Position numbers and translations under genes: made by a program. DNA of 64,000 nucleotides from Sulfuricella sp. (lineage in GTDB: Bacteria > Pseudomonadota > Gammaproteobacteria > Burkholderiales > Sulfuricellaceae), in assembly GCA_028713975.1 (NCBI GenBank), contig JAQTNE010000011.1, forward strand, positions 1 through 64,000. The letters are read 5' to 3'. The notes beneath the pieces are model-generated. The model was not told the origin of the DNA and did not search any database. It was given only the letters and a program-made list of their open reading frames with translations. Shown piece by piece: positions 41,946-62,674 of this stretch; positions within the stretch are counted from its first letter, which is position 1; every line of letters starts with the position of its first letter.

Positions 41946-41961
41946 TAAAGCGAGAGTGAAT

Positions 41962-44294: not shown

Positions 44295-44312
44295 TACAGA
44301 TAAAAACCCTTC

Positions 44313-44458
44313 ACCACAGAGACACAGAGGCACAGAGAAAACTTGAAACCTTCAACGCAAAGGCGCGAAGAACGCAAAGAAAAACAGTGATTGCCGTCTT
44401 GGCGGCCTTTGCGTAAAAACCGTTTTTGAATTTCTCTGTGTCTCTGTGTCTCTGTGGT
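44313..44458. repeat. Repeat element with 28-bp near-perfect terminal inverted repeats
   Basis: Arms at 44313-44340 (starting ACCACAGAGACACAGAGG) and 44431-44458 (ending CTCTGTGGT) match at 27 of 28 positions. The 90-base interior has its own inner repeat (CGCAAAGGC against GCCTTTGCG). It sits between the adaptor and pump genes of one operon. A related element with diverged arms lies at 61454-61596. It has no coding capacity and looks like a small non-autonomous element of the CACAGAGA type. Confidence 0.75.
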
Positions 44459-44486
44459 ATTGCATTGCTTTTTTTAAGGTTAAATC

Positions 44487-47400: not shown

Positions 47401-47564
47401 GCACCATCGCCGGCATGATCCCCATTGCCATGCAGCGCGCGGTCGGGCTGGAGCGGCTTTCGCCGCTGGCCGATGCCGCCATCGGCGGGTTGTTGGTGGG
47501 CACAGTGCTTTCGCTGTTCTACCTGCCGATGTTTTATGTATGGGTGTCTGGAAAACAACGCTGA
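44487..47564 (+). CDS. RND multidrug-type efflux pump
   Basis: A 1025-residue inner-membrane RND transporter with 12 membrane helices and two large periplasmic loops. It begins with a short cytosolic end and MVLAITSLLGVIGYLKMPRN; helix 4 carries LGMLVDDAVVVLENIERHL with the two proton-relay Asp residues near 405. It lacks the DFG signature of metal pumps, so it belongs to the hydrophobe/amphiphile side or an uncharacterised branch. It completes the operon TetR-cytochrome-TolC-adaptor-pump. Confidence 0.88.
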   Translation: MLFRYFHGRPLLLMMVLAITSLLGVIGYLKMPRNMYPDVERPQVTVITQLPGASALTVTQKLSRPIEQEMYALSNIRDVQSTNKNEVSIVRAEFNYEKGLDAALLDVNNALSRVRGKLPPEVPSSSVYAVGGFTQPVLVLALSPKAGSNLALAQIRLLAENDVRTALVTQPNVSNVEIFGGYEPAVKVEFDPLKLARYRISQAQLQELLNKLNRDWPSGTVQGKDSSLTLTIYGERVDIEALRQLPLIRGVMLKDVAALRLDHAERFSAYHGNGKAAIAVAVMRSPGGAVQAVIDSVETQLPKLKARYPNIEFAIADTQGELIRDSNANMIEALRDAIIFTSFVILFFLGNWRAVVTALVSIPLVFLSTLAILWLTGKELNILVMTGIILALGMLVDDAVVVLENIERHLGELHEDVQTAIRRGTEEVLFPVFVGTLATAVVITPLMFVGDFSQQIFKHLIMAVVIAVFTSYFVAVTFIPRLSAFWYRNGLPKKNRLEIFMEKIYQRSFGHGSSLYSGVLRFAFNGGFPRRLILVLPAFALLIFSFKTIIPLIGRDALPPMDTGIVRVHAKFSANEPVNVAEARLKDFEVRLMQDKRVQRVSATFGSEAGVISLGSGQLPAEATLNIAYVNRLEREDSSWKIEAELRRQLAALPGVTVADAFDSGATALSTIKAPVDIRLIAEDWRLLPDAAERVKAALLKVQGLSSVSVSWDANTSEASLVLNEDKMRALGLSPDVVLAQLPLKGAAVSSMSKLPTVGAIPVRSYFAEPWRSDPASLSLLPIPLPDGGATTLGEISHIVQQPGLSLLTTNANRYSLDVLAYRNTAPISVISEASLAAALKVLPPGVEAADQGDGAAGAESSKRMLTGLGMGVLLLFGVLVPAYGSVSLALLSIIILPLSAIGAVWGLLAFNKALALPAILGIVLLFSIIIKNSILMVDFIQERRREGSSVFDAAMESIRLRYRPILMTAFGTIAGMIPIAMQRAVGLERLSPLADAAIGGLLVGTVLSLFYLPMFYVWVSGKQR

Positions 47565-47577
47565 TTTCAGCGCTGAG

Positions 47578-48915
47578 TTATTGTTTTTCATCCGTGCCGC
47601 GGGCGATGTCTAGCTTGCGCATTTTTTCCCACAGATTCTTGCGGCTGATGCCGAGGCTTTCCGCGGTGCGTCCGAGGTGACCGTCGTTGCGCGCCAGCGC
47701 ATCGCGGATGTGACGCTCTTCGCACCTTTGCAGGTAACTGCCGAGTTTCCTATTGTCCGGCGGCGCCGGCTGTTCTCCTTCCTCGAACAGCATTTCCGGC
47801 TCCAGCAGCAGTCCGGGGGTGAGAATCGAGGCACGCTCGATGGCATGGTGAAGTTCCCGCACGTTGCCGGGCCAGGGATGGGCGAGCAGCGCTTCTTCGC
47901 CGGCGCGGGAAAGCTGCTTGCGTTCCCCCTTGGCGGCTTGCTCCTCCAGGAAGCGGTGGGCGAACCACAAGATGTCCTCGCGCCGCTCCCGCAGTGGCGG
48001 CACCTTGATTTGAATGACGTGGATACGGTAGAAAAGGTCTTCGCGGAAACCGCCTTCTTCCACCATCTTGCGCAGATCGCGGTGGGTGGCGCAGATCAGC
48101 CGCAGGTTGACGGCAATTTCAGCGTTGCCCCCGACGCGGACGATTTTCCGGTCCTGAACGGTGCGTAGCAGCTTGGCCTGCATGGACAGCGGCATATCGC
48201 CGATTTCATCGAGAAACAACGTGCCGCCGTCGGCCCGCTCGAACATGCCTTCGCGCGCGCGGGCCGCCCCGGTGAACGCGCCTTTTTCGTGGCCGAACAG
48301 TTCCGCTTCGAGCAGCGATTCGGTTACCGCAGCGCAATTGACGGCGACGAAAGGCCGGTCTTGGGTTTTCGGGTCGAGGTGATGGATTTCACGCGCTATC
48401 ACCTCCTTGCCCACGCCGGACTCCCCGGTGATAAGGATGGTGGGCGCGTGCTGGGCGAGGCGGGGCAGCGTCTGCGCGATTTGGCGCATGGCGGGCGAGA
48501 TGCCCAGGCGGCAGTTGTCTTCCTCGCAGGGGGAGACGCGGTTGCCGCACAGAGCGCCCACTTTTTCTACCAACTGGTCGAGGTCGAAGGGTTTGGTGAT
48601 GTAGTCTGCGGCCCCCAGCTTGAGCAGCGCCACGGCACGGTCGATCGAGCCGTGGCCGGTGATGAAGAGAAACGGCGGCAGGCTGATGCCCCGTTCCAGC
48701 AGGCGGATGAACACTTCCTCGCCGCTGCCGTCGGGCAGGCGGATGTCGCTTACCACCGCCGCATAATCCTTGCTCCCGACAGCGGCCAGGGCCGACTGGG
48801 CGGTACGGTGCCAGTCCGCCGCGTAGCCTTCCAGCTCGAACCGGTCGAAAAGGGATTCGCCCATGATTTCGTCGTCCTCGATCAGGCACAGGGAGGGTTT
48901 TGTCGGGTTGCTCAT
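47578..48915 (-). CDS. Sigma-54-dependent response regulator (AioR/ArxR-like)
   Basis: A 445-residue NtrC-type activator. The receiver domain has EDD near residue 14, phospho-Asp in [14 protein letters not shown] near 57 and Lys in YITKPFDL near 108. The AAA domain has Walker A GESGVGKE near 166, the sigma-54 contact loop GAFTGA near 223 and LFLDEIGD. A Fis-type helix-turn-helix ([20 protein letters not shown]) ends it. ATG 48913-48915 overlaps the kinase stop. The target is very likely the -24/-12 promoter at 51359-51374 that drives the molybdoenzyme operon. Confidence 0.93.
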
Positions 48916-50360
48916 GATTCTTCCTGCAAGGGTAAGGTGACGGCGAAATGGGTTTCGCCGGGTTCGCTTTCCACCACGATGCCGCCGTTCAACTGGCGCG
49001 CGATCTGGTAGGTGACCCACAGGCCCAGGCCGTGGCCGTTACGACTGAGGCGTGAAAATGGTTCAAACAGGTAGGGCATGTCTTCGTCTGCAATGTGGCC
49101 GCCATCGTTTTTTACCGCCAGGGTGAAACTGCGGCTGTCGCGGTAAACCCGGCACTCGACCCGCACGTTTGCGGCGCGGATGGCGTTGAGCAGCAGATTG
49201 AGAAGTATCTGGCGCACCAGAGTGGAGGGCAGGGGCAGGTCTGCGGTTATGTCGTTTTCCCAAACCAGCTCAACGCCTTTCCCGGCGGCTTCCGCAGCCA
49301 CCAGGGTGCGCGTGTCCTCGATGTCGCGGCGCGACAGGGAGTGGCTTTCCACCTTGGCTTCCACCAGCAGGGCGGCGACGGTGTCCTTGATCTGGGTGAG
49401 GCCGCGTTCCAGCAGCGACAGGGTTTTCAGGGCGCGGGGATCGTCCGAGCCATGCCGCTTGTAGGTACTGATGGTGTTGAGCATCCCGCCCAGGGGATTG
49501 TTGATCTCGTGGGCGATCCCGGCGGATAGGCGGCCTACCGCCGCCAGCCGCTCGGTAACCATCATTTCCTGCTCCAGCCGTTCCTTGTCCCTGAGTTCTT
49601 TCAACATGCGCTTGAAGGAGGCACCGGCGCGACCGATCTCGTCATGCGATTCGAACAGGTCGCAGTGAAGGTTTTCCGGCACGCTGGGCCCGATCTGATC
49701 CATGCAGGCGGCCAGCCGCACCAGCGGCCCGGCCATGCGGTTACCCCAGTACCAGGCGATGGGCAACAGCACCGCCAGCGCCAGCAGGGTCATCAGGGCG
49801 GCGCGTTGGGCAATGCCGACAAAGCGGGGCATGAACAGACTCTTGGAATAACCCATGACCAGGGTGCCCAGGCGCGCCCCTTCTGATGTGACCGGAATGG
49901 CAACAAACAGCCTGCCCGAATTTGGGGGGTCGATGACGGTCGGCTTGGCGTCGTTTTGCGCTGCCGCCATTTCGCTGATCGCGGCATATTCGGGATCAAG
50001 CCGTCCCGGATCGGCCAGCATGGGGTACTGGGCCGGCCGGGTGGACACATAAATCTGGCCCTTGGTGTCCAGTACCAGGATGGTTTCCGCAATCTGGGCC
50101 TGATCCCGGTTGCTGCCCTGGAAGGGCGAATTGATGATCTCGAAGGCGCGCCAGACGTCATCGTGGGTCATGGGGCCGACCAGGGTGTTGGCCAACACCC
50201 GCCCCATACTTTCGGCGTGGTGCAGCAGGTCGTTTCTGGTTTCGTCATACACCCGGAACAGGATGGAAGCCGTCACCAGCAATGCGGTGGCGCTGGCGAG
50301 CAGGAGCACCCGCAAGGGGATCTTGTAGCGCAGGCTGAGGTCGCGCACGAAATGCTTCAT
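48912..50360 (-). CDS. Membrane sensor histidine kinase (AioS/ArxS-like)
   Basis: A 482-residue NtrB-type kinase: helix 1 at about residues 15-38, a periplasmic domain of about 150 residues, helix 2 at about 187-210, HAMP linker, HisKA with GIAHEINNPLGGM (phospho-His near residue 286) and an ATPase domain with NLLLNAIRAANV and HGLGLWVTYQIARQLNGG. It lies between the periplasmic binding protein and the sigma-54 activator, overlapping each by 4 bases. The binding protein probably presents the signal to its periplasmic domain, as AioX does for AioS. Confidence 0.92.
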   Translation of the reverse strand: MKHFVRDLSLRYKIPLRVLLLASATALLVTASILFRVYDETRNDLLHHAESMGRVLANTLVGPMTHDDVWRAFEIINSPFQGSNRDQAQIAETILVLDTKGQIYVSTRPAQYPMLADPGRLDPEYAAISEMAAAQNDAKPTVIDPPNSGRLFVAIPVTSEGARLGTLVMGYSKSLFMPRFVGIAQRAALMTLLALAVLLPIAWYWGNRMAGPLVRLAACMDQIGPSVPENLHCDLFESHDEIGRAGASFKRMLKELRDKERLEQEMMVTERLAAVGRLSAGIAHEINNPLGGMLNTISTYKRHGSDDPRALKTLSLLERGLTQIKDTVAALLVEAKVESHSLSRRDIEDTRTLVAAEAAGKGVELVWENDITADLPLPSTLVRQILLNLLLNAIRAANVRVECRVYRDSRSFTLAVKNDGGHIADEDMPYLFEPFSRLSRNGHGLGLWVTYQIARQLNGGIVVESEPGETHFAVTLPLQEES

Positions 50361-51217
50361 GGCTGGCTCGCCACTTTCTCCGCCATGCGCGCGATGTCGT
50401 CATAAAGCTTGCGCTCGCCCGGCGTAAAACCGTTCAGATTGAGCTGGGCCAGCAATCGTTGCCCTTCCGGATCAGTGCGCATGGCGATCAGTACCTGCCG
50501 CAGAGCCGCAAAATCAGCCTCGGCGAGGGAAGCACGGGCGGCAATGGGCGGAAAGCCGAACTCGGGAGACTGTTCCACCACCCGTGTTTTTGCCGTGAGT
50601 TCGGGATGGGAACGGCGCAGGGTTTCCCACACATAACCGTCCACCGCACCGCCCTGGGCAAGTTCCACGGCGACGGCCTCCACCACCTTGTGATGCGCCC
50701 AGGTAAAGAAGGTGCGGGCAAAGAACACATCCGATCGTTCCTTGATCTGTGCCAGGGCATACTGGGTGTAGAGATAGCCGGAATTGGAATCCGGATCGGA
50801 GTAGGCAAACACCTCGCCGCGCAGGTCGAGCAGTGACTTGGTCTGGGCATCGTCGGCAGGAACAATGAGATAGGAGCGATACAGGGGCTTGCCCTGGAAC
50901 AGCGGCACGGCCAGAAGCCTGAGGCGCCGTTCGTGGTGCACGAAGGGGAAACCGCACAGCCAGGCGGCGTCAAGCTTGTTTTGGTCCAGCAGTTCCATGA
51001 TTTCGCGATAGCTGCCACGTTGCACGAAAACCACCGGGCGTTGCAACCGTGCCGCCAGATAAGCGCGCCACGCCTCCAGAAAAAGAGACTGGTTGTCGAG
51101 AAACACGGGGGTAAGCCCGATGCGCAGCATGGCCCGTCCGGCAGGCGCTGCGGCAGCGAATATCTTGGGTGCCAGCCCGCACAGGGCCAGTGTTGCGCAA
51201 AAACGCCTCCTCGACAC
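50357..51217 (-). CDS. PhnD-like periplasmic binding protein, probable oxyanion sensor (AioX/ArxX-like)
   Basis: A 286-residue periplasmic protein with a signal peptide (RRRF start, cut near residue 23) and a PhnD/type-2 binding fold: RIGLTPVFLDN, QRGSYREIMELLDQNKLDAAW and YSDPDSNSGYLY, the anion-binding segment. PhnD-type proteins bind phosphonate, phosphite or, in AioX, arsenite. The mature protein has one Cys only, residue 88 in AWLCGFPFVHH, at the place that lines the cleft in this fold. There is no ABC permease nearby, and the gene overlaps the kinase gene, so it is a sensor and not a transporter part. Start GTG 51215-51217 has a GGGGG site. Confidence 0.85.
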   Translation of the reverse strand: MSRRRFCATLALCGLAPKIFAAAAPAGRAMLRIGLTPVFLDNQSLFLEAWRAYLAARLQRPVVFVQRGSYREIMELLDQNKLDAAWLCGFPFVHHERRLRLLAVPLFQGKPLYRSYLIVPADDAQTKSLLDLRGEVFAYSDPDSNSGYLYTQYALAQIKERSDVFFARTFFTWAHHKVVEAVAVELAQGGAVDGYVWETLRRSHPELTAKTRVVEQSPEFGFPPIAARASLAEADFAALRQVLIAMRTDPEGQRLLAQLNLNGFTPGERKLYDDIARMAEKVASQP

Positions 51218-51258
51218 GTTTCACCCCCCAAGTAAATCTGGTTTATACCACGCGATGT

Positions 51259-51305
51259 TTACCGAATGGTAACACTGTGATTTTGTGTTTGTAACCATAA
51301 GGTAA
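51259..51305. promoter_or_regulatory. Paired dyads upstream of the sigma-54 promoter, candidate activator sites
   Basis: TTACCGAATGGTAA (51259-51272) is a perfect dyad, and TAACCATAAGGTAA (51292-51305) is a near copy, their centres 33 bp apart, about three helical turns. They lie some 55-100 bp upstream of the -24/-12 promoter, the normal range for enhancer sites of NtrC-type activators, and also near the start of the regulator operon. Binding by the activator encoded at 47578 is inferred. Confidence 0.5.
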
Positions 51306-51358
51306 TGCTATTTTATTTGATGCGCGACAATATCATTAATAAACAGCGTATTGAATAT

Positions 51359-51374
51359 TGGCATGAATGGTGCA
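51359..51374 (+). promoter_or_regulatory. Sigma-54 (-24/-12) promoter of the molybdoenzyme operon
   Basis: TGGCATGAATGGTGCA has the invariant GG (51360-51361) and GC (51372-51373) separated by exactly 10 bases, as required for sigma-54. Transcription should start near 51385, about 90 bp before the iron-sulfur subunit gene. The divergent operon encodes a sigma-54 activator, which makes the assignment coherent. Only the fifth and sixth bases depart from the TGGCAC-N5-TTGCA consensus in a minor way. Confidence 0.8.
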
Positions 51375-51475
51375 TATGGTTAAGCGACCAGGATGACAAG
51401 GGTTATGGTTGCCCGCCAGGGGTAGGTGAGGCATCAAGGCGGGTCGGGTTATCAATCAGGAGGAGAGCAACAACC

Positions 51476-52183
51476 ATGAGCGAACTGCGAACTTCATCAA
51501 TCGAAACAAGAGGAAAACCAGGCCTGAAGCGGTACGCCATGGTGATTGACCTGCGCCGCTGCATCGGCTGTGATGCCTGCATGGTCGCCTGCAAGGCTGA
51601 ATTCGATGTCCCACTCGGGGTTTTCAGGACCTGGGTGCCATACAAGGTGGTGGGCGTCTATCCCGTTGTGAGAAAACATTTCATGCCGCGCCTGTGCAAC
51701 CACTGCGATGATCCGCCCTGTGTGCGTTCCTGTCCGGTGGGAGCCACCTACAAGGTGGAGGACGGCGGCTTTGTGCTCCAGCACTATGACCGTTGTATCG
51801 GCTGCAAGGCCTGCATGGCGTCCTGTCCCTACAACGCTCGTTTCATGTTGCCCAAGAGCCGCACCTACACCGACATCACCAGCGTGGTGGACAAATGCAC
51901 CTTCTGTCACCATCGAGTAACGCAGGGGTTGGCACCCGCCTGCGTGCAGACCTGCATCGGCCGGGCGCGCATTTTCGGCGATATCAACGACCCCAACAGC
52001 GAAGTGTCGAAACTGGTGTCCAGCCTGCCGACCCAGGTGCTGCGCCCCGAGGAAGGCACCAAGCCGCACGTATTTTACATCGGCCTGGACCGCAATAATT
52101 CCGAGTTTGGCCGCGCGGTTTACAACCCGCTCGACGTGCTGGAACAGGATCGTCAGGCGTTCAACAAAAACCACCAGGGATAG
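51476..52183 (+). CDS. Molybdoenzyme iron-sulfur (electron-transfer) subunit
   Basis: A 235-residue DmsB/PsrB/TtrB-type protein with four cysteine groups (CIGCDACMVAC, CNHCDDPPCVRSC, CIGCKACMASC and KCTFC...ACVQTC), sixteen Cys for four [4Fe-4S] clusters. There is no signal peptide; such subunits are exported by hitch-hiking on the Tat signal of the catalytic partner. ATG 51476 has an AGGAGGAGAG site and lies after the predicted transcript start, so longer starts are excluded. It passes electrons between the catalytic and membrane subunits. The gene is first in the operon, order B-C-A. Confidence 0.93.
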   Translation: MSELRTSSIETRGKPGLKRYAMVIDLRRCIGCDACMVACKAEFDVPLGVFRTWVPYKVVGVYPVVRKHFMPRLCNHCDDPPCVRSCPVGATYKVEDGGFVLQHYDRCIGCKACMASCPYNARFMLPKSRTYTDITSVVDKCTFCHHRVTQGLAPACVQTCIGRARIFGDINDPNSEVSKLVSSLPTQVLRPEEGTKPHVFYIGLDRNNSEFGRAVYNPLDVLEQDRQAFNKNHQG

Positions 52184-52192
52184 GAGTAAATC

Positions 52193-53050
52193 ATGGGTGA
52201 CTTCAATATTTTTCATCACATGCCGTGGTCGAGCACGTACTCGATCTATTTCTTCACCATCGGCATTTCCGCAGCGCTGTTTTTCTTTTCCGCTCTGTCC
52301 TGGTTCTGGGAGGAATTCAGGTCTTTGCGCCACAGCGCTTTCTACGTCTCCTTCGTGCTGCTGGCGATCAGCGGCGCGCTGCTGATCGGCGACCTGTCGC
52401 AGCCGCTGCGCTTCCTCAACATCATGAACCCGGCCTATCTCAATTTCACCTCGCCGCTGGCCTGGGGTGGGCTGAACCTGATGTCGTTCGGCGCGGTATC
52501 GGTGGCTTATTTTTTCATGATGCGCAAGAACGATGAGGCGATAAGCCGCAAGCTGGCGGTGGTGGGGTCGCTGCTGGCCTTGGGCCTGCCGATTTACACC
52601 GGATTCGACCTCACGGTGCACCAGAATCGTCCAGTGTGGAACACGCCGCTGATGCCGGTGTTGTTCGTCGCCTTGTCCCTGGTGTCCGGCGCGGCGGTGG
52701 CCTCCTTCCTGGCTGGCGGCACGGAGAAGCTGCAAGTCATGCTGCGCCGTTTCATGTTGTGGACGGCGGGTGCGGTGGGCGCGATGCTGGTGTCCCTGCT
52801 CGGCACCACCGCTTACGGCGGAGTGGGACCGGAACTCACCTTTATGTTCATGACCAGCGGCACACTCGGCACGATCTTCATCGGCATCGGCATCCTGCTC
52901 GGTACGGCGGCGCCGATTGCGCTGCTGCTCGCGCCTTTTGGAAAACAGCAGCAGGGCATGATGATCGCCGCAGCGCTGCTATTGGTAGGCGGAATGGCAT
53001 TGCGCTACTCGATTCTGGTCGGCGGCCAGATCGTGCAGATTTATTTCTAA
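52193..53050 (+). CDS. NrfD/PsrC-type membrane quinone-reactive subunit
   Basis: A 285-residue integral membrane protein with about eight helices, for example YSIYFFTIGISAALFFFSAL at 17-36 and VSFVLLAISGALLIGDL. It belongs to the NrfD/PsrC/TtrC group, which anchors the complex and exchanges electrons with the quinone pool. It contains no haem-ligand pattern of the cytochrome b type. It lies 9 bp after the iron-sulfur subunit gene and 19 bp before the catalytic subunit gene. Confidence 0.88.
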   Translation: MGDFNIFHHMPWSSTYSIYFFTIGISAALFFFSALSWFWEEFRSLRHSAFYVSFVLLAISGALLIGDLSQPLRFLNIMNPAYLNFTSPLAWGGLNLMSFGAVSVAYFFMMRKNDEAISRKLAVVGSLLALGLPIYTGFDLTVHQNRPVWNTPLMPVLFVALSLVSGAAVASFLAGGTEKLQVMLRRFMLWTAGAVGAMLVSLLGTTAYGGVGPELTFMFMTSGTLGTIFIGIGILLGTAAPIALLLAPFGKQQQGMMIAAALLLVGGMALRYSILVGGQIVQIYF

Positions 53051-53069
53051 AGATCAGGGAGACTAGATC

Positions 53070-55709
53070 ATGTTGAATTTTAAAATTTCTCGCCGCGCCT
53101 TCCTCCAGGCCAGTGCCGCGACCACAGCCGCTGCAGCGGCTTCGCCCAAGCTGCTCAAGGCGATGGAAGTCGAGCTGGGCGGCAAGGACTTTAATCCGAA
53201 TAGCTACATCGAGCGCAAATCTATTCCTTTGACCTGCCATGTCTGTAACATCCAGGACGGCGCGATCGCCTTTGTGGAGAACGGCCGTATCGTCAAGCTC
53301 GAAGGCAACCCGGAACACGTGTCCACCCGCGGCAGATTGTGCGCCAAGGGCAATTCCGGCATGTGGTACACCTACAACCCGGATCGCATCATGTATCCGC
53401 TAAAACGAGTCGGCGCGCGCGGCGAAGGCAAGTGGAAGCGCATCACCTGGGATGAGGCACTGGCCGAAGTAGCGCAAAAACTGGATGCGGCACTCAAGGA
53501 AGACCCAAATACAATTTCGTTTAAATATGGCCGCGACCGCACCGGTGGCGTCATCGGGCGCTTCATGAACACTTTGGGTTCTGGATCGCTCATCAATCAC
53601 ACCTCGGTGTGCGAATCGTCGAAGAAAATCGGCATGCAGGCCACCTGGGGTCCGGACATTGAAACGCCGGATTTTGCCAATGCCAAGTACATTCTCAACT
53701 TCGGTTCCAATATCATGGAGGCGGCCTACTTCCATAACCCTTATGCCCAGCGCCTTGCCGACGGTATGGCGGATAACAAGGCCAAGCTGGTCACCTTTGA
53801 CGTGCGCCTGTCCAACACCGCAGGCCGTTCCGACGAGTGGGTTCCGGTATTTCCCGGTACAGACGGCGCGGTTGCACTGGCACTCGGTCACGTGATTCTG
53901 CGTGACAACCTGCAGGATAGCGATTTCATCGAGACCTGGACCAATGTCACCGTTGACGAATTAAAAGACCACTACAAGCAGTTCACGCCTGAGTGGGCAT
54001 CCAAGCTTTCCGGCGTGCCGACGGAAACCATCGAACGCATCGCGAAGGAATTTGCTACGGCCAAACCGGCGACGACATACACCTACCGCGGTCCGGCCAA
54101 GCACCTGTACGGTTCCTATAACGAGAAGTCGTGCATGATGTTGTCCATCATGACCGGCAATATCGAAGTACGTGGCGGCTACTGCCTGCCGCGCGGCATG
54201 GGTTGGCCACAACCGCAACCGGCACCGCCCAAAGCGCCCAAGCCTTCCTATACGGCCGCACATCCAGATTATCCGCTGGCCGAACATGGTGTTGCTCACG
54301 TACTTCCTTTTCATATTGCAGAAGGCAGGCAGAAGGTCAATATTCATTTCACCTACATGGATAACCCGGTTTATACCAATCCGGGGTCTGATGCGGTGTG
54401 GGGCAAGCTGTACCGTGACGAGAAACTGATACCCTACTTTGTCTCGTGGAGCACGGTCATGGGCGAGGAAACGGCGTTGGCAGATCTTATTCTGCCGGAT
54501 TGCATGTACCTGGAACGCTGGGAGCCGGAATCCATGCCAAACTCGTTGTGGCCATGGCTGGGGATCCGCCAACCGGTGATCAAGCCCTTGGGCGAAACCC
54601 GTGAAACCCGCATCATTGCGCGCGACATCATCCGTAAGCTGGACCCGGACGGAAAGCGTGGCATGAAGAAATACTGGAATTTCAAGGATGGCGAGGACTA
54701 CATGCGCCAGCACTTCGACAATATTCCGGGGCTCAAGGAAGCGGGTGGCCTGGACTTCCTCAAGAAGCATGGTGTCTGGCCGATCTACGGTAAGCTCAAT
54801 CCCGAAACCGGCAAGATTTCGGACAAAACCGGCCGTGAAATTGTCGCCGAGTTTGGCCTGCACAAGAAGGAATTGTCGGCGTCCGATATGGCCGGCGCCG
54901 TGGCGGATAAAAGCGGCACCATCATGAAAAACGGCAAGGCCATCGGTGTCCAGCGCAAGGGCAAGAACTATGCTGGCTTCCCGACCGGCAATCGCCTGAT
55001 CAATGTTCGTGTGGACGAATGGGCGGAGCATGGCTTCAACCCGATGCCGACCTTCAAGCGCATTCCCTGGCATGAGACCATGAAGGACGACGAGATGATC
55101 CTCTCGACCTACAAGTACAACGTTCACGTGCAGTCGCGTACCGCTTCGGTGAAGTGGCTGGCGGAAATTGTGCACAGCAATCCGGCATGGATGAACGCCG
55201 AAACGGCTGCCAAGATCGGCGTGAAAACTGGCGATCTGGTGCGGGTGGAAAGCAAGGTAGGCCACCTGGTTACCAAGGCTTATGTGAACGAAGCCATTCA
55301 TCCCAAGGTAATCGCGATTTCCACCGGTGTCGGTCACTGGGGTTATGGGCGGCTGGCGCAACTCAAGCTCAAGACCGAGAAGGGCGGTGCCTGGGGGGCA
55401 CAGGATGATCCCGATCTGAACAACGTGTGGTGGGAGGACAAGGGGGTGCATCCCAACCAGATCATCCCGGTGGTGGTTGATCCCATCGGCGGTTCCCAGG
55501 GATGGTACGACACTATCGTCAAGGTGACCAAGGCCGGGCCGAATGACAAGTATGGCGATGTCCAGGCCTCGTGGGAGAAACACGTGGAAGCCTACAAGGA
55601 AACCGTGCGTTACGCCTACAACGGCGACCTGCACCGCAAGATGCACCCGGAAATGGCCGCTTGGACCGGGCCGGAGAGCGTCAAGCACAAGGAAGGCGGA
55701 GGCCATTGA
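53070..55709 (+). CDS. Mo-bisPGD oxidoreductase catalytic subunit with Tat signal (Psr/Phs/Arr/Arx-type), atypical FeS motif
   Basis: An 879-residue DMSO-reductase-family protein. A twin-arginine signal (SRRAFLQ, residues 7-13) exports it folded. The N-terminal cluster motif reads C56-x2-C59-x3-D63-x27-C91: spacing is exactly that of Cx2Cx3Cx27C, but the third ligand is Asp. The probable Mo ligand is C181 in NHTSVCESSKK, as in polysulfide, thiosulfate and arsenate reductases. A Pro-rich insert occurs near residue 375-390, and the C-terminal cofactor domain (VESKVGHLVTKAYVN) is complete. The B-C-A order matches tetrathionate (ttr) and selenate (srd) reductases, while the regulators match arsenite oxidation. 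The substrate is therefore open. Confidence 0.9.
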   Translation: MLNFKISRRAFLQASAATTAAAAASPKLLKAMEVELGGKDFNPNSYIERKSIPLTCHVCNIQDGAIAFVENGRIVKLEGNPEHVSTRGRLCAKGNSGMWYTYNPDRIMYPLKRVGARGEGKWKRITWDEALAEVAQKLDAALKEDPNTISFKYGRDRTGGVIGRFMNTLGSGSLINHTSVCESSKKIGMQATWGPDIETPDFANAKYILNFGSNIMEAAYFHNPYAQRLADGMADNKAKLVTFDVRLSNTAGRSDEWVPVFPGTDGAVALALGHVILRDNLQDSDFIETWTNVTVDELKDHYKQFTPEWASKLSGVPTETIERIAKEFATAKPATTYTYRGPAKHLYGSYNEKSCMMLSIMTGNIEVRGGYCLPRGMGWPQPQPAPPKAPKPSYTAAHPDYPLAEHGVAHVLPFHIAEGRQKVNIHFTYMDNPVYTNPGSDAVWGKLYRDEKLIPYFVSWSTVMGEETALADLILPDCMYLERWEPESMPNSLWPWLGIRQPVIKPLGETRETRIIARDIIRKLDPDGKRGMKKYWNFKDGEDYMRQHFDNIPGLKEAGGLDFLKKHGVWPIYGKLNPETGKISDKTGREIVAEFGLHKKELSASDMAGAVADKSGTIMKNGKAIGVQRKGKNYAGFPTGNRLINVRVDEWAEHGFNPMPTFKRIPWHETMKDDEMILSTYKYNVHVQSRTASVKWLAEIVHSNPAWMNAETAAKIGVKTGDLVRVESKVGHLVTKAYVNEAIHPKVIAISTGVGHWGYGRLAQLKLKTEKGGAWGAQDDPDLNNVWWEDKGVHPNQIIPVVVDPIGGSQGWYDTIVKVTKAGPNDKYGDVQASWEKHVEAYKETVRYAYNGDLHRKMHPEMAAWTGPESVKHKEGGGH

Positions 55710-55734
55710 TTAATCCCTGAGCAGGCGGAGTGCC

Positions 55735-55776
55735 CCCAGTCGTGAGGATATTCCCTTCTTCATGACTGGGTTTTTT
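55735..55776 (+). terminator. Intrinsic terminator between structural and maturation genes
   Basis: CCCAGTCGTG (55735-55744) pairs with CATGACTGGG (55761-55770), one G-T wobble, followed directly by TTTTTT (55771-55776). It lies between the catalytic subunit gene and the chaperone gene, 12 bp before the latter's start codon. No second promoter is obvious, so it probably acts as a partial terminator that lowers expression of the downstream maturation genes. Confidence 0.8.
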
Positions 55777-55788
55777 GAGAGGATTACG

Positions 55789-56568
55789 ATGCAAAAACAG
55801 AATGCAGCACCAGCCGAAATTACGAAAGATTCCTCGTTTCCACAGGAATTGCGTGCCCGCGCCGGTTTTTATCAACTGCTGGCAGGTGCCTTCGTCGAAG
55901 AGCCGGGGCGCGACTATCTGGCCGCGTTGCGCGTGCCGGAAGCGCTGGCTTCGCTGGCCGAGCTGGGCTTGCAGTTCGATGCCGACTTTACCGATGTCCC
56001 ATTGAGCGAGCTCCAGGATGCTCTGGCTTGCGAATATGCCACGCTCTTTACCTGCCCCGGCGGCTGTCCGCCGATGGAATCAACGCGCCTCGCCGGGCGT
56101 TTCCAGCAGGAATCGTATCATGAGGTGAAAGCCATCTACCGGTGCGCCGGATTCGAGCTGCAACAGGGCAGGTTCGCCGTGTTCGAGGACCAGCTCGGAA
56201 TTGAGCTGTCCTTCGTGGCGGTACTGCTGGAACGTTGGGCCATGATGCTGGAAAGCGGCGACATGGCTGCTGCCGGCAAGCTGGAAAAGGAAATCAAGCG
56301 CTTCTGGGTACTCCACCTGGGGCGCTGGGTACGCGGCTACGCAACGCTGCTGGCGCGGGCGGCGGAACATTCCTTCTACCGTGAAATCGCTCGCCTGTTG
56401 CAGAGCTTTGCCGAGGAAGAGATGGCCCTGCTCGGGGTGCGGGTTGACGATGTGGACGGCGGGCGCGAGAAGGTGCCGAAAAGCGAGGTCTCGGTGCTTT
56501 TCAATCCCGATGAGTCCGTATGCGATGGCTGCGAGCGCGGCAAAGAGCCAAACAGGTCTTTTGCATGA
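55789..56568 (+). CDS. TorD/DmsD-type molybdoenzyme chaperone
   Basis: A 259-residue all-helical protein of the TorD family, cytosolic chaperones that bind the Tat signal and aid cofactor insertion. Segments RARAGFYQLLAGAFVEEP, LACEYATLFTCPGGCPPMES and LGIELSFVAVLLERWAMMLE fit the family. The C-terminal tail adds CDGCERGK. ATG 55789 has a GAGAGGA site. It should serve the catalytic subunit encoded just upstream. It overlaps the next gene by ATGA. Confidence 0.85.
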   Translation: MQKQNAAPAEITKDSSFPQELRARAGFYQLLAGAFVEEPGRDYLAALRVPEALASLAELGLQFDADFTDVPLSELQDALACEYATLFTCPGGCPPMESTRLAGRFQQESYHEVKAIYRCAGFELQQGRFAVFEDQLGIELSFVAVLLERWAMMLESGDMAAAGKLEKEIKRFWVLHLGRWVRGYATLLARAAEHSFYREIARLLQSFAEEEMALLGVRVDDVDGGREKVPKSEVSVLFNPDESVCDGCERGKEPNRSFA

Positions 56569-56963
56569 GCCACGAATTTGCCTGGGACGAACTTGAACTG
56601 CAGTGGAATGGCAATAATTTCGGTGCCGTCCACGACTGGCTGGGCGAGCGCTGGAATCACCTGATCCAGACCCGACCGGAGGGCCACGACGACCCGGACG
56701 CGCAATTTATGCAAGGCTTGGCGTTCGCAGCGCTGGCCTTCCACTTCACTCAGAACCATAACCAGGACGGCGCGGCACTGCTCGCCGAAGACGCAGTGTC
56801 CAAGCTGACTGGGTTCCTGCCTGCTTACTGCGGGGTGGAGGTGGCGCCCGTCCTGGAGACACTGAACATCCTCCTGCCATTGTTGGTGGGACTGGAGCAC
56901 GAGGCCGATTGCCCCATGCAGCCCTTCATTTTCAACAAACTTGCGTATCAGGTGATGAATTGA
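56565..56963 (+). CDS. Uncharacterised helical protein in the molybdoenzyme operon
   Basis: A 132-residue protein that I cannot assign firmly. It is soluble and helical; ELQWNGNNFGAVHDWLGERWNHLI followed by QGLAFAALAFHFTQNHNQDGAALLAEDA (quoted in parts) faintly resembles the DUF309 pattern of an N-terminal His-containing helix and a repeat-like second helix. ATG 56565 overlaps the TorD-like stop, and its own stop overlaps the next start, so translation is coupled on both sides. A maturation role is inferred only from position. Confidence 0.65.
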   Translation: MSHEFAWDELELQWNGNNFGAVHDWLGERWNHLIQTRPEGHDDPDAQFMQGLAFAALAFHFTQNHNQDGAALLAEDAVSKLTGFLPAYCGVEVAPVLETLNILLPLLVGLEHEADCPMQPFIFNKLAYQVMN

Positions 56964-57658
56964 TGAACGAACCCGTATCGGAAATTACGCTTCGCCGCTG
57001 GGCCAGTCCCGAGGATGGCCCCTTCGCGGAACCGGTTTTCATCTTCGACGGCGATAGTCTGCCCGAGGATATGGCCCACGTCTCGGTGGTGTTGAGAACC
57101 GCCGGACGGGAACGTGCCCGCGAGTTCATCGCACGGGGCGCGGAGCGGGTGCTGCTGGGCGAGGCGGCGCTGCTGGATAGCGGCTTGATCGAAACTCTGA
57201 GCAAGGAGCTTGGCACCGAAAAAGTGGGAGTATGGGTTCCCGCACGGCGCATGGAGGTCAGTTGGGCGCTGGACCTCCATTCCAACGCCGATTTCAGATG
57301 CGTCACGCCTTCTCTTCTCAAACCTGCGTGGGAAGCGCTGAAAAATGACGGCAGCCGTAGCGGCACCGATGCCGGTTGGTGGCTCGGGCAAATGCTGGAG
57401 CGCGGCGCGTCCCTGGCGCTACTCGGGGCGGACATCGCCGACGACACCGACCTCAACCTTTGCGCTGAACTGGTGGAGCAGTTCGGCTCCCGGCTCTGGT
57501 TGACCCCCTTGGCAAATCCGGAGGCGGATTTGCACCCATGGATACAGTTTGGCCAGGCAAGAAACCTGGCCATTCCTGATAGCGAGCATTACGACGAGGC
57601 GGCGATGCTGGCCCTGCGCCAGGCATTGTGGCCCGCAGCAGAGGTGGCGGCGGCATGA
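56963..57658 (+). CDS. Divergent HisA-like (TIM-barrel) protein in the molybdoenzyme operon
   Basis: A 231-residue soluble protein whose middle part, FIARGAERVLLGEAALLDSG then TEKVGVWVPARRM, and later part, LALLGADIADDTDLNLCAEL, resemble the phosphate-binding strands of HisA/HisF isomerases. The N-terminal strand with the catalytic Asp of HisA (ALDL-type) and the GGG-type loops are missing or changed, so it is not an ordinary histidine enzyme. Start ATG 56963 overlaps the upstream stop (TGATG). It lies in a run of tightly coupled maturation-like genes. Remote similarity only; function unknown. Confidence 0.5.
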   Translation: MNEPVSEITLRRWASPEDGPFAEPVFIFDGDSLPEDMAHVSVVLRTAGRERAREFIARGAERVLLGEAALLDSGLIETLSKELGTEKVGVWVPARRMEVSWALDLHSNADFRCVTPSLLKPAWEALKNDGSRSGTDAGWWLGQMLERGASLALLGADIADDTDLNLCAELVEQFGSRLWLTPLANPEADLHPWIQFGQARNLAIPDSEHYDEAAMLALRQALWPAAEVAAA

Positions 57659-58107
57659 GCATTTTTGGAAAATGGGCAATTATATTTGCATGGGCCTTGT
57701 CGGCACCGGCGTGGGCCGCTACGGCATCACTGCTGGATAGCGCAGGGCTTGCGGAAGTGCTGAAAAAAGGCCCGCCCTGCTGCGTGATTGACGCCCGCGA
57801 GGAAGGCAGGCGCAAGCAAAGGCCCATTCCCTTCGCCGTGATTTACAACGAAAGCATCAAGCCCAAACCGGGGGGCTTTGCGCTGGTTGTGGGCGACAAC
57901 GACGCGCAGGCCCTGGAGGCTGCACGGACAATCTTCAAACGGAGCGGGCTGGATGTTTATGCCGTGAAAGGTGGCTATGCCACCTGGCAACAGATACAGA
58001 AAGGCGGCAAGAAGTCGTCCGCCGGGCCGGAATTCGTTATGCCGCAACGCTTTACTATTCCCAGCAATACCTGCGAACCGCCGAAGGCGTTGCACGAATA
58101 TAAATAA
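57655..58107 (+). CDS. Exported rhodanese-like protein lacking the catalytic Cys
   Basis: A 150-residue protein with a signal peptide (cut after AWA, about residue 21) and a single rhodanese-like fold: CCVIDAREEGRRKQRPIPFAV near residue 42 and a YAVKGGYATWQQI end. The strand-loop where active rhodaneses carry their Cys reads ALVVGDNDAQAL here, without Cys, so sulfur transfer by the usual route is unlikely. The pair CC before VIDAR is another possible reactive site. It is coupled to the preceding gene by ATGA. Confidence 0.65.
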   Translation: MSIFGKWAIIFAWALSAPAWAATASLLDSAGLAEVLKKGPPCCVIDAREEGRRKQRPIPFAVIYNESIKPKPGGFALVVGDNDAQALEAARTIFKRSGLDVYAVKGGYATWQQIQKGGKKSSAGPEFVMPQRFTIPSNTCEPPKALHEYK

Positions 58108-58281
58108 TCCGGTGAGGAGAGAGGAGAAAAAATTTTGCCGCGCCGCTATTGGCTTCTATGCCTCTCAAAAAGCACCAATGCAATTCATTGATCACGTAAG
58201 GTGTTTCTTCGGCGCGATTTGCGGCATCGGGCCGGTTACTGTGCTAATTCCTCACGACTTACAGGTCTTATCGGATAATCC
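58108..58281 (+). other. Spacer with a possible 36-residue reading frame
   Basis: This 174-bp gap holds a short open frame from ATG 58178 to a TGA at 58286-58288, overlapping the next gene's ATG (ATGCTGA). It would encode a 36-residue peptide starting MQFIDHVRCFFGAICGIG. A purine-rich GAGGAGAGAGGAG run lies near 58113, too far to serve this ATG. I cannot tell whether the peptide is made. Otherwise the gap looks empty. Confidence 0.25.
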
Positions 58282-59373
58282 ATGCTGACCCAGCCCGAAT
58301 ATCGCGCTACCCGCTGCACCCGTTACCGCTACCGCTACAGTGAATGCAGCCGCTGCGCCGGCGCCTGTCCTCACGAGGCGGTGGCTCTGTCCGACGAAGG
58401 CATCACAATCAATCCGTCCGTGTGCCGGAACTGCGCCCTGTGCGCCGCAGCATGCCCTACGGAAGCCATCCTGCCAGACAACCTGCCTCGCATCGAAATT
58501 TTGAAGCGCGCCGTCAAGCTGCCTGAAGTCACTTTCGCCTGCGCGCCTTCCGGGATCAAGGGCGATGAAATCGTGCCCTGCCTGGGTGGGCTGGATGCGG
58601 CGATGCTGGCCTATCTCGCCGGCCGTGGCGTTGCCGTTACGCTTGCCGGTGCGCATCATTGCACCGAGTGCCCTCATGGCGCACAGGGAGAGGCACGGCT
58701 GGGGTTCTCCCTGAATGCGGTCGAAGTGCTACGGGGTATTGTCGGCAACGACAAGTGGGCTGAAATCAGTGTGCCTGAAGGAAGCGAAACAGAAGCGGGC
58801 AAGGCCGGACATAATTCCTCACGCCGCCATTTGTTCCGCCGCTTCGTCGGGCGGGGAGCGGATCAGATGATGCGCCCGATTTCCGCCACCGAGCAACAGC
58901 CCGTTCCGCTCAAGGCGATCCGCTTCGACGCGCCGTTTTCTACCGCCGGACGGGAATTGCTGCAAATCCTGTTTGAAGCCAAACAGGAAGAGCGCCTCCC
59001 GTTACCCGCCCATCCGGCGCTTTTCGTCGCCCGGGTCGATATCCGGCCCGGCTGCACAGCCTGCGAAGCTTGCGCCCGCGCTTGTCCCACTGGCGCGATG
59101 CAAATCAGGGAAAGCGCCACGGCCTGGGAATTGGGGTTCCAGTTTTCCCGCTGCGTCAGTTGCGGAGTGTGCGTCGAAGTCTGTCAGCCGCGCGTTCTGC
59201 ATTTTCAGGATGAAATGAAAAATCTTGCCAAGGCATCTTCTCCTGTGACTTTGCATGCTCTCGGCAAACAACGCTGCGCCCGCTGCGACCGCTTCTTCAT
59301 TTCGCCCGCCCCGGCGGAAACCTGCCCGATCTGCGAGGGCGATGACGCGGATTTTGCATCCCTTTTCGGTTAA
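58282..59373 (+). CDS. Multi-cluster ferredoxin-like protein with C-terminal zinc-ribbon-like tail
   Basis: A 363-residue soluble protein with two N-terminal ferredoxin repeats (CSRCAGACP, CRNCALCAAACP), a central domain of about 150 residues containing HHCTECPHGAQGEA, and two more repeats (CTACEACARACP, CVSCGVCVEVCQP). It ends with a Cys-pair finger, CARCDRFF...CPICEGDD. The order recalls iron-sulfur proteins next to formate dehydrogenases and other molybdoenzymes, where they supply electrons for cofactor assembly or activity. The stop overlaps the ATG of a moaA frame. No membrane segment is seen. Confidence 0.8.
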   Translation: MLTQPEYRATRCTRYRYRYSECSRCAGACPHEAVALSDEGITINPSVCRNCALCAAACPTEAILPDNLPRIEILKRAVKLPEVTFACAPSGIKGDEIVPCLGGLDAAMLAYLAGRGVAVTLAGAHHCTECPHGAQGEARLGFSLNAVEVLRGIVGNDKWAEISVPEGSETEAGKAGHNSSRRHLFRRFVGRGADQMMRPISATEQQPVPLKAIRFDAPFSTAGRELLQILFEAKQEERLPLPAHPALFVARVDIRPGCTACEACARACPTGAMQIRESATAWELGFQFSRCVSCGVCVEVCQPRVLHFQDEMKNLAKASSPVTLHALGKQRCARCDRFFISPAPAETCPICEGDDADFASLFG

Positions 59374-59384
59374 TGGAGAAGCCG

Positions 59385-60356
59385 ATGTCATTTGACAGCT
59401 ACGGACGCCGCATCGAATACCTGCGGCTGTCCGTCACCGACCGCTGCGATCTGCGTTGCAGCTACTGCATGCCGGAAGGTTTCAAGGGCTACGAGGAACC
59501 CGCCAACTGGCTGACGTTCGACGAAATCGAGCGGGTGGTGGGGGCCTTTGCCCATCTTGGCGTGCAGAAAATCCGCCTCACCGGCGGCGAGCCCTTGCTG
59601 CGACGGAACCTTCCAGATCTGGCTACACGTATTTCCGCCCTTCCCGGCATCACCGACCTGTCCCTTTCCAGTAACGGCACTCAACTGGGAAAACATGCGC
59701 AGGCGCTACGCGCCGCCGGCATTACCCGGCTCAATATCAGTCTCGACACCCTCGACCCGGCCCGCTTTGCCGAAATTACCAGGCGGGATGCGCTGGGAGA
59801 TGTGCTTTATGGCCTGAGTGCAGCACGGGAAGAAGGGTTCGGCCCGATCAAGATCAACATGGTCGTCATGGCAGGCGTCAATGACGATGAGATCGACGCC
59901 ATGGCCGCCTATTGCATCGGGCACCGCTTCGTGCTGCGCCTGATCGAAGCCATGCCAGTGGGTGAGACCGGGCAAAAGACCGCTTTTCTCGCGCTCGGCC
60001 CAATCCGCGACCGGCTGCGCCAGCGTTTTGGCCTGATCGACGGTGTAGTCCCCGGCGCTGGCCCGGCACGCTACCTGGTCTCGCCCGATGGAAGCTACCG
60101 GATTGGCTTCATCACGCCGATGTCGCAACACTTCTGCGACACCTGCAACCGCCTGCGGCTTTCCGTGGACGGTACGCTTTACCTCTGTCTCGGTCAGGAC
60201 GACAAGGTGGAACTACGGCCTCTGCTGCGAAGTGGGTGTAGCGATGAACAACTCGAACAGGCGCTGCTTGATGGTATCCGGCGCAAACCGTTCAAGCATG
60301 AATTTCGCGAACAACCCGGACAGATCGTGCGCTTCATGTCATTTACCGGCGGTTAA
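59385..60356 (+). CDS. moaA: GTP 3',8-cyclase MoaA (operon-linked copy)
   Basis: MoaA is the radical-SAM enzyme that starts molybdopterin synthesis. The 323-residue protein has LRLSVTDRCDLRCSYCMPEG with the CxxxCxxC cluster near residue 20-27, KIRLTGGEPLLR, and the C-terminal cluster motif CDTCNRLRLSVDGTLYLCLG. It ends FTGG, like the GG tail needed for catalysis. I prefer ATG 59385 with a GGAGAAG site; ATG 59373 overlaps the upstream stop. A copy inside this operon implies dedicated molybdopterin supply when the enzyme is made. Confidence 0.93.
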   Translation: MSFDSYGRRIEYLRLSVTDRCDLRCSYCMPEGFKGYEEPANWLTFDEIERVVGAFAHLGVQKIRLTGGEPLLRRNLPDLATRISALPGITDLSLSSNGTQLGKHAQALRAAGITRLNISLDTLDPARFAEITRRDALGDVLYGLSAAREEGFGPIKINMVVMAGVNDDEIDAMAAYCIGHRFVLRLIEAMPVGETGQKTAFLALGPIRDRLRQRFGLIDGVVPGAGPARYLVSPDGSYRIGFITPMSQHFCDTCNRLRLSVDGTLYLCLGQDDKVELRPLLRSGCSDEQLEQALLDGIRRKPFKHEFREQPGQIVRFMSFTGG

Positions 60357-60370
60357 TCAGGAGAATCAAC

Positions 60371-60778
60371 ATGGAATGGGAGTTTAGCGCGGAGGATGTG
60401 GTTCAGGGTAATGCTGACTATGGCTTGGCGGATTTCCGCCGCGACCTTGCGCAAGAAACTCGACTCAACCTGCCACAAGGCGCTGATCAGGTCGAGAGCG
60501 AAAAGCTGTTCGAGCTGGTCTACGACCTGTGTTACTGGCTCGCCACCGGACGGGATCTGGTGGACTTCGAGCGCGAGGTCGGCGCCGACCCCTATCTCGC
60601 CGCATTCCTGCGCATGGTACACCGCCACAGCGGGCCCAATGTGGCGATGCTGGGGGCGATCCTGCAACGTGCCATCATGGATGGCGTGGAGGCCGGGATG
60701 CCTCTGGAGGCGGCCCTGGAAGCCGCAGCGGCAAGACATGCGCAGGTGGTGGGTGACGCTGTGATGGTGTTGAATTAG
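60371..60778 (+). CDS. Uncharacterised helical protein after moaA
   Basis: An unrecognised 135-residue soluble, mostly helical and acidic protein (MEWEFSAEDVVQGNADYGLA at the start; later GPNVAMLGAILQRAIMDGVE). It lies 14 bp after moaA with a GGAGAA ribosome site and is the last intact gene of the molybdoenzyme region. There are no cysteines suited to a cluster except one in YDLCYWL. A role with the molybdoenzyme is inferred from position only. Confidence 0.65.
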   Translation: MEWEFSAEDVVQGNADYGLADFRRDLAQETRLNLPQGADQVESEKLFELVYDLCYWLATGRDLVDFEREVGADPYLAAFLRMVHRHSGPNVAMLGAILQRAIMDGVEAGMPLEAALEAAAARHAQVVGDAVMVLN

Positions 60779-60999: not shown

Positions 61000-61028
61000 T
61001 TGACTATATGCGCACTGGCGAATATAGT
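61000..61028 (+). promoter_or_regulatory. arsR promoter with overlapping ArsR operator
   Basis: TTGACT (61000-61005) and TATAGT (61023-61028) are 17 bp apart. A dyad with half-sites ACTATATGCGC (61003-61013) and GCGAATATAGT (61018-61028), 10 of 11 paired, spans the spacer and -10. This is the classic place for ArsR repression. Start of transcription should fall near 61034-61036, almost on the arsR start codon. Confidence 0.75.
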
Positions 61029-61034
61029 TGCCGC

Positions 61035-62661: not shown

Positions 62662-62674
62662 CTGGGGGCCGATC

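Follow-up and report, generated by a model that had tools for sequence, protein, structure and literature searches.

A conserved sigma-54-controlled molybdoenzyme cluster with an AioX-type sensor as a candidate arsenite oxidation system of Beta- and Gammaproteobacteria

Which reaction does a molybdoenzyme catalyze if its sensor resembles that of arsenite oxidases and its structural genes stand in the B-C-A order of ttr-type reductases? This question is raised by a gene cluster at positions 47578 to 60778 of a 64,000-nucleotide stretch of Sulfuricella sp. DNA (GenBank assembly GCA_028713975.1, contig JAQTNE010000011.1, positions 1 to 64,000; hereafter the window), taken from a draft genome of 2.33 Mb and 89% completeness. 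The initial annotation of the window had leaned toward arsenic as the substrate element, and this lean was strengthened by an AioX-type sensor, by arx clusters abutting the cluster in other genomes, and by the proximity of acr3. In our reading, the system is a periplasmic oxidoreductase of a new MopB clade that is induced by arsenite, transcribed under sigma-54 control, and linked to the quinone pool. Most likely it is an arsenite oxidase, and we give this reading an even chance; arsenite oxidation is judged the likeliest reaction because sensor type and context point to arsenite and many hosts were found without Aio or Arx. Our estimate tips slightly in favor of a broader proposal, in which the cluster would represent a third respiratory arsenic (As, possibly thio-As or Sb) molybdoenzyme family beside Aio and Arx/Arr. 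This proposal jointly comprises an Asp-ligated or three-iron cluster next to Mo, own maturation proteins (a HisA-like barrel, a rhodanese-like, a DUF309-like, and an MLGAILQR protein), a wide distribution in Beta- and Gammaproteobacteria, and the position of sole arsenic-linked MopB enzyme found in many hosts.

Gene content and organization

The cluster consists of the following features.

47578 to 48915, minus strand: R, NtrC/AtoC-type sigma-54 activator with receiver domain (PF00072, PF00158, PF02954; scanned from 48924)
48912 to 50360, minus strand: S, membrane histidine kinase (HisKA, HATPase_c; two hydrophobic segments)
50357 to 51217, minus strand: X, periplasmic AioX-family arsenic-oxyanion sensor (PF12974; AioX structure match, pocket kept)
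51258 to 51273, plus strand: palindrome TTTACC-GAAT-GGTAAC, candidate activator site (pattern common in upstream regions)
51291 to 51305, plus strand: second, imperfect palindrome GTAACC-ATAA-GGTAA (read from the sequence)
51359 to 51374, plus strand: -24/-12 sigma-54 promoter element TGGCATGAATGGTGCA (consensus match)
51476 to 52183, plus strand: B, four-cluster ferredoxin subunit with 16 Cys (TtrB, DsrO, and ArrB profiles, all below cut-offs)
52193 to 53050, plus strand: C, NrfD/PsrC-type membrane anchor of 285 aa (PF03916)
53070 to 55709, plus strand: A, molybdopterin catalytic subunit of 879 aa with twin-Arg signal (Fe-S motif CxxCxxxD...C; GR155, H177, C181, K186)
55762 to 56568, plus strand: TorD/NarJ-type chaperone (PF02613)
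56565 to 56963, plus strand: DUF309-like small protein (weak PF03745; open reading frame open from 56520, scanned from 56553)
56963 to 57658, plus strand: HisA/HisF-like TIM-barrel protein (weak PF00977, HisF profile; scanned from 56957)
57655 to 58107, plus strand: rhodanese-like protein, probably periplasmic, with C-terminal IPxNTCE motif (alignment; signal-like N-terminus read from the sequence)
58282 to 59373, plus strand: polyferredoxin, ArxB2 homologue with 24 Cys (ArxB2 alignment)
59373 to 60356, plus strand: moaA, optional member (TIGR02666 above cut-off)
60371 to 60778, plus strand: small protein without known family (MLGAILQR stretch invariant in 15 rows)

The reading frame of R extends to 49020, with 48915 as best start; B starts at 51476, and an AGGAGG begins 18 nt upstream. 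As described in the initial annotation, the trio of PhnD-like protein, kinase, and activator (XSR) is tightly packed, with 4-nt overlaps at both X/S and S/R, and faces the B-C-A operon. Its description of the downstream genes as mostly coupled by overlaps holds for the pairs chaperone/DUF309-like, DUF309-like/HisA-like, HisA-like/rhodanese-like, and polyferredoxin/moaA (1-4 nt each), whereas gaps of 174 nt and 14 nt separate the rhodanese-like gene from the polyferredoxin gene and moaA from the last gene, respectively.

Occurrence in other genomes

Among 150 relatives, six beyond the window's own genome carried A at 79-86% identity, the next best reaching 41%. A scan of 84,980 species genomes by two peptide patterns gave 197 relatives, the best 80 of which were kept. 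The 79 loci retained include 64 whose A has at least 70% identity, and by record title almost all of these come from Beta- or Gammaproteobacteria; exceptions include Bradyrhizobium and a Phycisphaerae draft genome. Named hosts include Thauera aminoaromatica S2, Aromatoleum toluclasticum, Aromatoleum buckelii, Hydrogenophaga taeniospiralis, Hydrogenophilus thiooxidans, and Herbaspirillum sp. ST 5-3, and in Azoarcus KH32C the cluster is located on plasmid pAZKH with an ars operon beside it.

Upstream of A, the 46 loci with enough contig hold B and C in all cases, X and S in 44 each, and R in 40, the last figure being an undercount caused by a distance limit (L082, L100, L105, and L110 do show R). 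Downstream, the chaperone, DUF309-like, HisA-like, and polyferredoxin genes are present in all 50 loci with enough contig and the rhodanese-like and last genes in 47 each, so that the proposed search of other genomes for the downstream block recovered six genes in 47-50 of 50 loci. The seventh, moaA, had been taken for a dedicated gene of the system; it occurs in just 10 of the 50 and falls outside the conserved set. These counts include a few records present twice, as genome and as named locus. Dozens of loci show this gene order, which places the arrangement far beyond chance.

Toward more distant relatives the cluster thins out. The DUF309-like, HisA-like, rhodanese-like, and last genes were found, at the cut-off used, in none of the 15 loci with A below 70% identity; XSR accompanies A at 51% identity in a SAR324 genome and, more distantly, at 48% in a Nitrospinota genome. 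A scan of viral contigs gave no relative, and a search of the open-access literature, with subscription papers mostly outside its scope, found no paper describing this cluster.

Sensor, regulators, and promoter

In comparison with PDB structures, X scored 220 bits against AioX and 132 bits against ArrX, versus at most 40 bits against phosphite (PtxB, 40) and phosphonate proteins. PMC5908839 gives Tyr88, Cys106, Tyr131, Ser161, Ser163, His192, and Asp210 as the AioX pocket and reports that AioX and ArxX bound arsenite alone among ten anions listed. Across 67 rows (the window plus 66 loci, best X per locus), the corresponding positions of X hold Tyr in 67, Cys in 66 (one gap), Tyr in 67, Ser in 67, Ser in 65 (two Thr), His in 67, and Asp in 66 (one gap). 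The same paper further describes a hydrophobic loop of Val56, Phe57 or Ile, and Leu58 in AioX and ArxX, with ArrX devoid of Val and Phe; X shows Val in 65 rows, Phe in 51 or Ile in 15, and Leu in 61. By pocket residues and loop, X is a predicted member of the AioX/ArxX sensor subfamily. In a tree of 35 X proteins, five of the arx-linked ones formed a starred clade that excluded the cluster's X; another arx-linked X, from Cereibacter, stood elsewhere on a long branch.

The -24/-12 promoter proposed in front of B was confirmed at 51359-51374 and recurs in the relatives: a match of at least 13 out of 14.5 was present upstream of B in 47 of 67 regions versus 1.4% of shuffles, a threshold of 11 being too lax (42% of shuffles pass). 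The palindrome GTTAC-N6-GTAAC or TTACC-N4-GGTAA was found upstream of B in 53 of 67 regions versus 0.06% of shuffles; the pattern was chosen after viewing the window sequence, and the shuffles therefore test its frequency, not its choice. Within five arx regions scanned, the same palindrome precedes the arx operon in two (G040 and G017) and was not found in G014, S. denitrificans, and C. azotoformans.

Eleven loci (L062, L064, L066, L067, L072, L074, L086, L088, L096, L098, and L116), mostly Comamonadaceae where genus or family is named, carry at this position an XSR set of much lower similarity (S ~30%, X 41-46%), as though another regulator had taken the place of the usual one.

Class of the catalytic subunit

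The tree of the catalytic subunit envisaged by the initial annotation set A apart from those characterized families that were represented in it. A forms its own clade in a quick tree of 53 rows (30 rows, SH-aLRT 100) and in a careful tree of 28 rows (13 rows, support 100/97), outside the ArxA/ArrA, TtrA, and PhsA clades, and a single clade of A with ArxA and ArrA was rejected (p-AU 0.0001). These trees resolve the backbone between clades poorly, and a number of reference rows stand on long branches; the ArrA and TtrA rows lie below curated cut-offs, ArxA rows were identified via arx gene order plus GRG motif, and the references hold no PsrA, SrdA, SoeA, or SreA rows. The ArrA reference row scored 1155 bits versus a cut-off of 1600 and carries the RGRY motif. 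Family searches returned one ArrA row from 369 genomes, below cut-off, three TtrA rows from 185 genomes, all below cut-off, and no PhsA match from 185 genomes.

A scored 188 bits with the ArrA model NF041714 (cut-off 1600), 350 bits with the PhsA model NF012032 (cut-off 694), and 37 bits with the AioA model TIGR02693 (cut-off 359). It was apart from E. coli PhsA in both trees and from the TtrA-type rows (three in the quick, two in the careful tree), all of which are below the TtrA cut-off. No Rieske domain was detected among the operon proteins in the domain scan. According to PMC6549141, ArxA is marked by the motif XGRGWG and ArrA by (R/K)GRY; the window has KYGRDRTGG and the relatives nearly always GR[DNQ]R, which excludes assignment to ArxA by motif, and to ArrA as well given GRDR without Tyr. 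Assignment to SoeA would call for a shared clade and for the absence of a Tat signal; A has a twin-Arg signal, no certified SoeA row being part of the tree.

Several residues of A are strictly conserved. For the counts on A, four duplicate record pairs (genome plus named locus) were removed; they were kept in the X, promoter, and Cys counts. All 65 covered rows have the twin Arg at positions 8-9. The third Cys of the [4Fe-4S] motif is replaced by Asp63 in 65 of 65 covered rows with at least 70% identity, in 6 of 6 at 48-62%, and in just 5 of 10 more distant rows; the ArxA, ArrA, and PhsA reference rows carry Cys at this position. This Asp may shift the potential of the Mo-proximal cluster upward, an effect that an AioA-like three-iron cluster might also have. 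R155, H177, Mo-Cys181, and K186 are invariant in every covered row with at least 48% identity.

The ArrA residues aligned with R155, H177, C181, and K186 of A, namely Arg165, His189, Cys193, and Lys198, reportedly line the arsenate site in the ArrA structure; two further ArrA residues, Tyr166 and Tyr210, are replaced in A. The GR, HxxxC, and K of A are likewise present in our ArrA row, and the four ArxA rows are without Lys at the K186 position. A respiratory arsenate reductase with the same sensor and topology, in which electrons would run from quinol via C and B to A, draws on this alignment of K186 and H177, on the ttr-type reductase order, and on the consideration that Arx-bearing hosts would then have both directions. 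We regard it as unlikely, since X is nearer the arsenite-binding AioX than ArrX and has the arsenite-type loop, the Lys also occurs in unrelated MopB rows, and the AU test rejects a clade with ArrA and ArxA.

In five relatives of A with 40-42% identity (L126, L128, L129, L130, and L132), the Mo-ligand Cys is apparently missing, and these may be cofactor-free paralogues; L130 is, by alignment, additionally devoid of the Fe-S cysteines. Asp at the first Fe-S ligand position instead was seen in L139 and L140 (TtrA-like) and L034 (unassigned MopB).

Proximity to arsenic genes

The cluster of the window is directly followed by an arsenic module, as initially annotated:

61008 to 61382, plus strand: arsR (NF007528 above cut-off)
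61720 to 62661, plus strand: two-domain sulfurtransferase (rhodanese) of the ars module (PF00581; NF008557 below cut-off)
62627 to 63760, plus strand: acr3 arsenite efflux pump (TIGR00832 381 bits, cut-off 283; scanned from 62690)

An ArsP_1 permease gene 3' of acr3 runs over the window end, and a methyltransferase gene beyond it is taken for a putative arsM, Pfam giving methyltransferase only. The association extends to other genomes: among 35 genomes, 16 have acr3 on the contig of the cluster at a distance of up to 40 kb (0.78 expected, P ~5e-18), and 9 have it within 15 kb (0.31 expected). These statistics assume random placement, the genomes are not independent, and coordinates were transferred by hand; the 35 genomes were picked mainly for contigs above ~40 kb (three are shorter) after the flanks had been seen, and contig ends hide some neighbors. 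Given this proximity, chance placement near ars genes is not credible.

Immediately next to the cluster lie arxXSR and arxB2-A-B in three of seven sampled genomes (G014, G017, and G040), the arx genes of the G017 contig being resolved short of arxC. A single contig of Herbaspirillum ST 5-3 holds, within 55 kb, the cluster (102-115 kb), arxXSR with arxB2ABC (118-128 kb), an acr3-, arsA-, arsD-, and arsC-bearing ars operon (134-144 kb), and aioA (1288 bits, 154 kb). In Sulfuricella denitrificans, plasmid pSCD carries an arx cluster beside arsR, rhodanese, arsC, acr3, permease, and arsenite methyltransferase genes. The searches for ArxA were positive in 4 of 7 and 5 of 24 genomes or records. AioA exceeded its cut-off in none of the 7 and in 5 of the 24, with just ~430-440 bits for four of the five. 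Three of the seven genomes (G000, G018, and G055) showed neither AioA above cut-off nor ArxA; of 23 further genomes, 16 had no match to either one at E 1e-60, and the KH32C plasmid record had none. The cluster is thus the only such candidate found in many hosts. Single absences are not firm because several genomes are drafts.

A sulfur-oxyanion reductase (for tetrathionate or thiosulfate) merely sited near arsenic genes would fit the B-C-A order and the resemblance to PhsA and TtrB profiles. We consider it very improbable in view of the AioX-family X in 44 of 46 loci, the acr3 proximity under random placement, and the position of A apart from the TtrA-type and PhsA rows in the trees. Of the two substrate elements left open initially, a sulfur oxyanion as sole substrate has thus become less likely because of the AioX-type sensor, the abutting arx clusters, and acr3, and what stands of that suggestion is a possible role of sulfur-arsenic species.

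Relation to known systems

The closest resemblance is to Arx (arxXSR, arxB2ABCD). Putative counterparts of arx A, B, C, chaperone, B2, and XSR are all present in the cluster, with XSR divergent from the operon, an NrfD-type C, a TorD chaperone, and a B2 polyferredoxin; arx clusters, too, often adjoin ars genes and sometimes moaA. In contrast to Arx, the order is B-C-A-chaperone-...-B2; A lies outside the ArxA/ArrA clade, has GR[DNQ]R where ArxA has GRGWG, and carries Asp at the position of the third Fe-S Cys; C has 285 aa compared with 409; and four proteins are added (DUF309-like, HisA-like, rhodanese-like, and the last protein). With Aio (aioXSR, aioBA) the cluster shares the AioX-type sensor, an NtrC-type activator, and a sigma-54 promoter, but A is not AioA by profile, and an NrfD-type anchor is present without a Rieske subunit. 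PsrABC/PhsABC and TtrABC likewise combine a Cys-ligand molybdopterin subunit with a ferredoxin and a membrane subunit; A is separate from PhsA and TtrA in the trees, and sensor family and accessory genes differ.

Two further systems were excluded by comparison with published descriptions. The Soe-like cluster 2 of Thioalkalivibrio, a MopB enzyme proposed to oxidize arsenite or thioarsenate, is stated in PMC6620896 to have no Tat signal, and this description rules out identity with A and its twin Arg. The antimony oxidase NaoABC, another MopB enzyme acting on a group-15 metalloid and coupled to nitrate reduction, is described in PMC11521347 as A-B-C with a Rieske subunit and a catalytic subunit nearest NapA, and is ruled out on these grounds.

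An antimonite oxidase remains a quite improbable alternative. It would agree with Acr3 and the sensor also serving Sb(III), with arsB/acr3, arsA, and arsR being counted among Sb(III) resistance genes, and with Azoarcus being named as a nitrate-dependent Sb(III) oxidizer (both in PMC11521347), Azoarcus KH32C having the cluster. Weighing against it, AioX, ArxX, and ArrX did not bind antimonite according to PMC5908839, NaoABC with its gene order, Rieske protein, and nearness to NapA is unlike the cluster, and Hydrogenophaga taeniospiralis IDSBO-1 is cited as a carrier of aioA that cannot couple Sb(III) to nitrate (PMC11521347).

Accessory proteins

The cysteines of B are kept in 77-81 of 81 rows and the 24 Cys of the polyferredoxin in 57-58 of 58. 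The polyferredoxin aligns with ArxB2 of locus L040 over residues 9-363 (25% identity, E 9.6e-21), and ArxB' is described with six predicted clusters in PMC5908839. It had been listed initially among the genes matching no one system; the gene is indeed present, but has this counterpart in arx clusters. The HisA-like assignment was borne out: 15 of 17 members match PF00977, though weakly, and HisF structures were matched by profile (best E 3e-7 across ~50 positions). PF03745 matched the DUF309-like protein weakly in 16 of 16 members, and no credible match was found for the protein of the last gene.

The rhodanese-like protein (weak PF00581 match in 10 of 15 members) had been described as free of Cys. 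The usual active-site Cys is missing by alignment, but an invariant C-terminal Cys is present. An oxidoreductase for thioarsenite or thioarsenates, with this protein taking the released sulfur, could explain its presence in the block (47 of 50 loci). The best PDB match of A, a thiosulfate/polysulfide reductase, points the same way, as do a wider-clade member in Rhodococcus RHA1 adjoining DsrE- and TusA-type sulfurtransferases and some hosts that are sulfur oxidizers by name. With the active-site Cys missing, and with Aromatoleum, Thauera, and Hydrogenophaga among the hosts, which are not typical sulfur oxidizers, we consider this explanation rather unlikely.

Proposed function

For arsenite oxidation, the following course of events can be proposed. 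Gene content, conservation, the sensor-pocket residues, the promoter elements, the separate clade of A, and the physical linkage with arsenic genes were observed directly, whereas ligand, substrate, reaction direction, cofactor ligation, and the functions of the helpers are inferred. X would bind periplasmic arsenite and activate the kinase S, which would phosphorylate R; R would bind the palindromic sites and drive sigma-54 transcription of B-C-A and the helper genes. A would be matured with molybdenum cofactor by its own chaperone and helpers and exported together with B by Tat. At its Cys-ligated Mo, A would most likely oxidize arsenite (or related As(III)/Sb(III) species), and electrons would pass from A via the Asp-modified Fe-S cluster to B, the NrfD-like C, and the quinone pool.

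A number of observations weigh against this interpretation. ArrX shares the sensor pocket residues yet binds arsenate (PMC5908839), and XSR is absent from the sampled flank in 2 of 46 loci. The GR of A is also found in L004, L037, L038, and L146 and its Lys in L015, L016, L018, and L027; since both occur elsewhere in MopB rows, the pocket-like residues are no proof of an arsenic site. With 350 bits for the PhsA model and 216 for 2vpw ('thiosulfate reductase') versus 188 (profile) and 200 (structure) for ArrA, A is by profile nearer PhsA/PsrA than ArrA, and this speaks against reading it simply as an arsenic enzyme. Three of 35 genomes gave no Acr3, and the sampled flank, which spans only several kb outside the cluster, holds a strict arsenic gene (acr3, arsA, arsD, arsM, arx) in just 13 of 64 loci, or 18 of 64 if a second XSR set is counted. 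Finally, several hosts have Arx and one also the 1288-bit AioA, and a redundant arsenite oxidase needs explaining.

Arsenic-respiration surveys commonly score aioA, arxA, and arrA. If the enzyme acts on arsenic, a widespread lineage escapes them; it comprises, among others, cultured strains of Thauera, Aromatoleum, and Hydrogenophaga for which neither aioA nor arxA was found. The cluster would then add a new microbial route to energy from arsenic or a close chemical relative, and, in culturable strains, an enzyme whose Fe-S ligand is unusual, together with a set of uncharacterized accessory factors.

Neighboring genes

Beside the arx genes of G040 (L049:12005-15371), a third MopB catalytic subunit with GHG motif is encoded with a ferredoxin subunit, a chaperone gene being next. 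One genome each carries a Porin_4-type outer-membrane porin between A and the chaperone or between X and B (L039:7129-8250 and L045:4514-5647), which perhaps serves substrate entry. In the window, apparent TolC-type, membrane-fusion, and RND efflux genes occupy positions 41956-47564, ending 13 bases from the R gene in convergent orientation.

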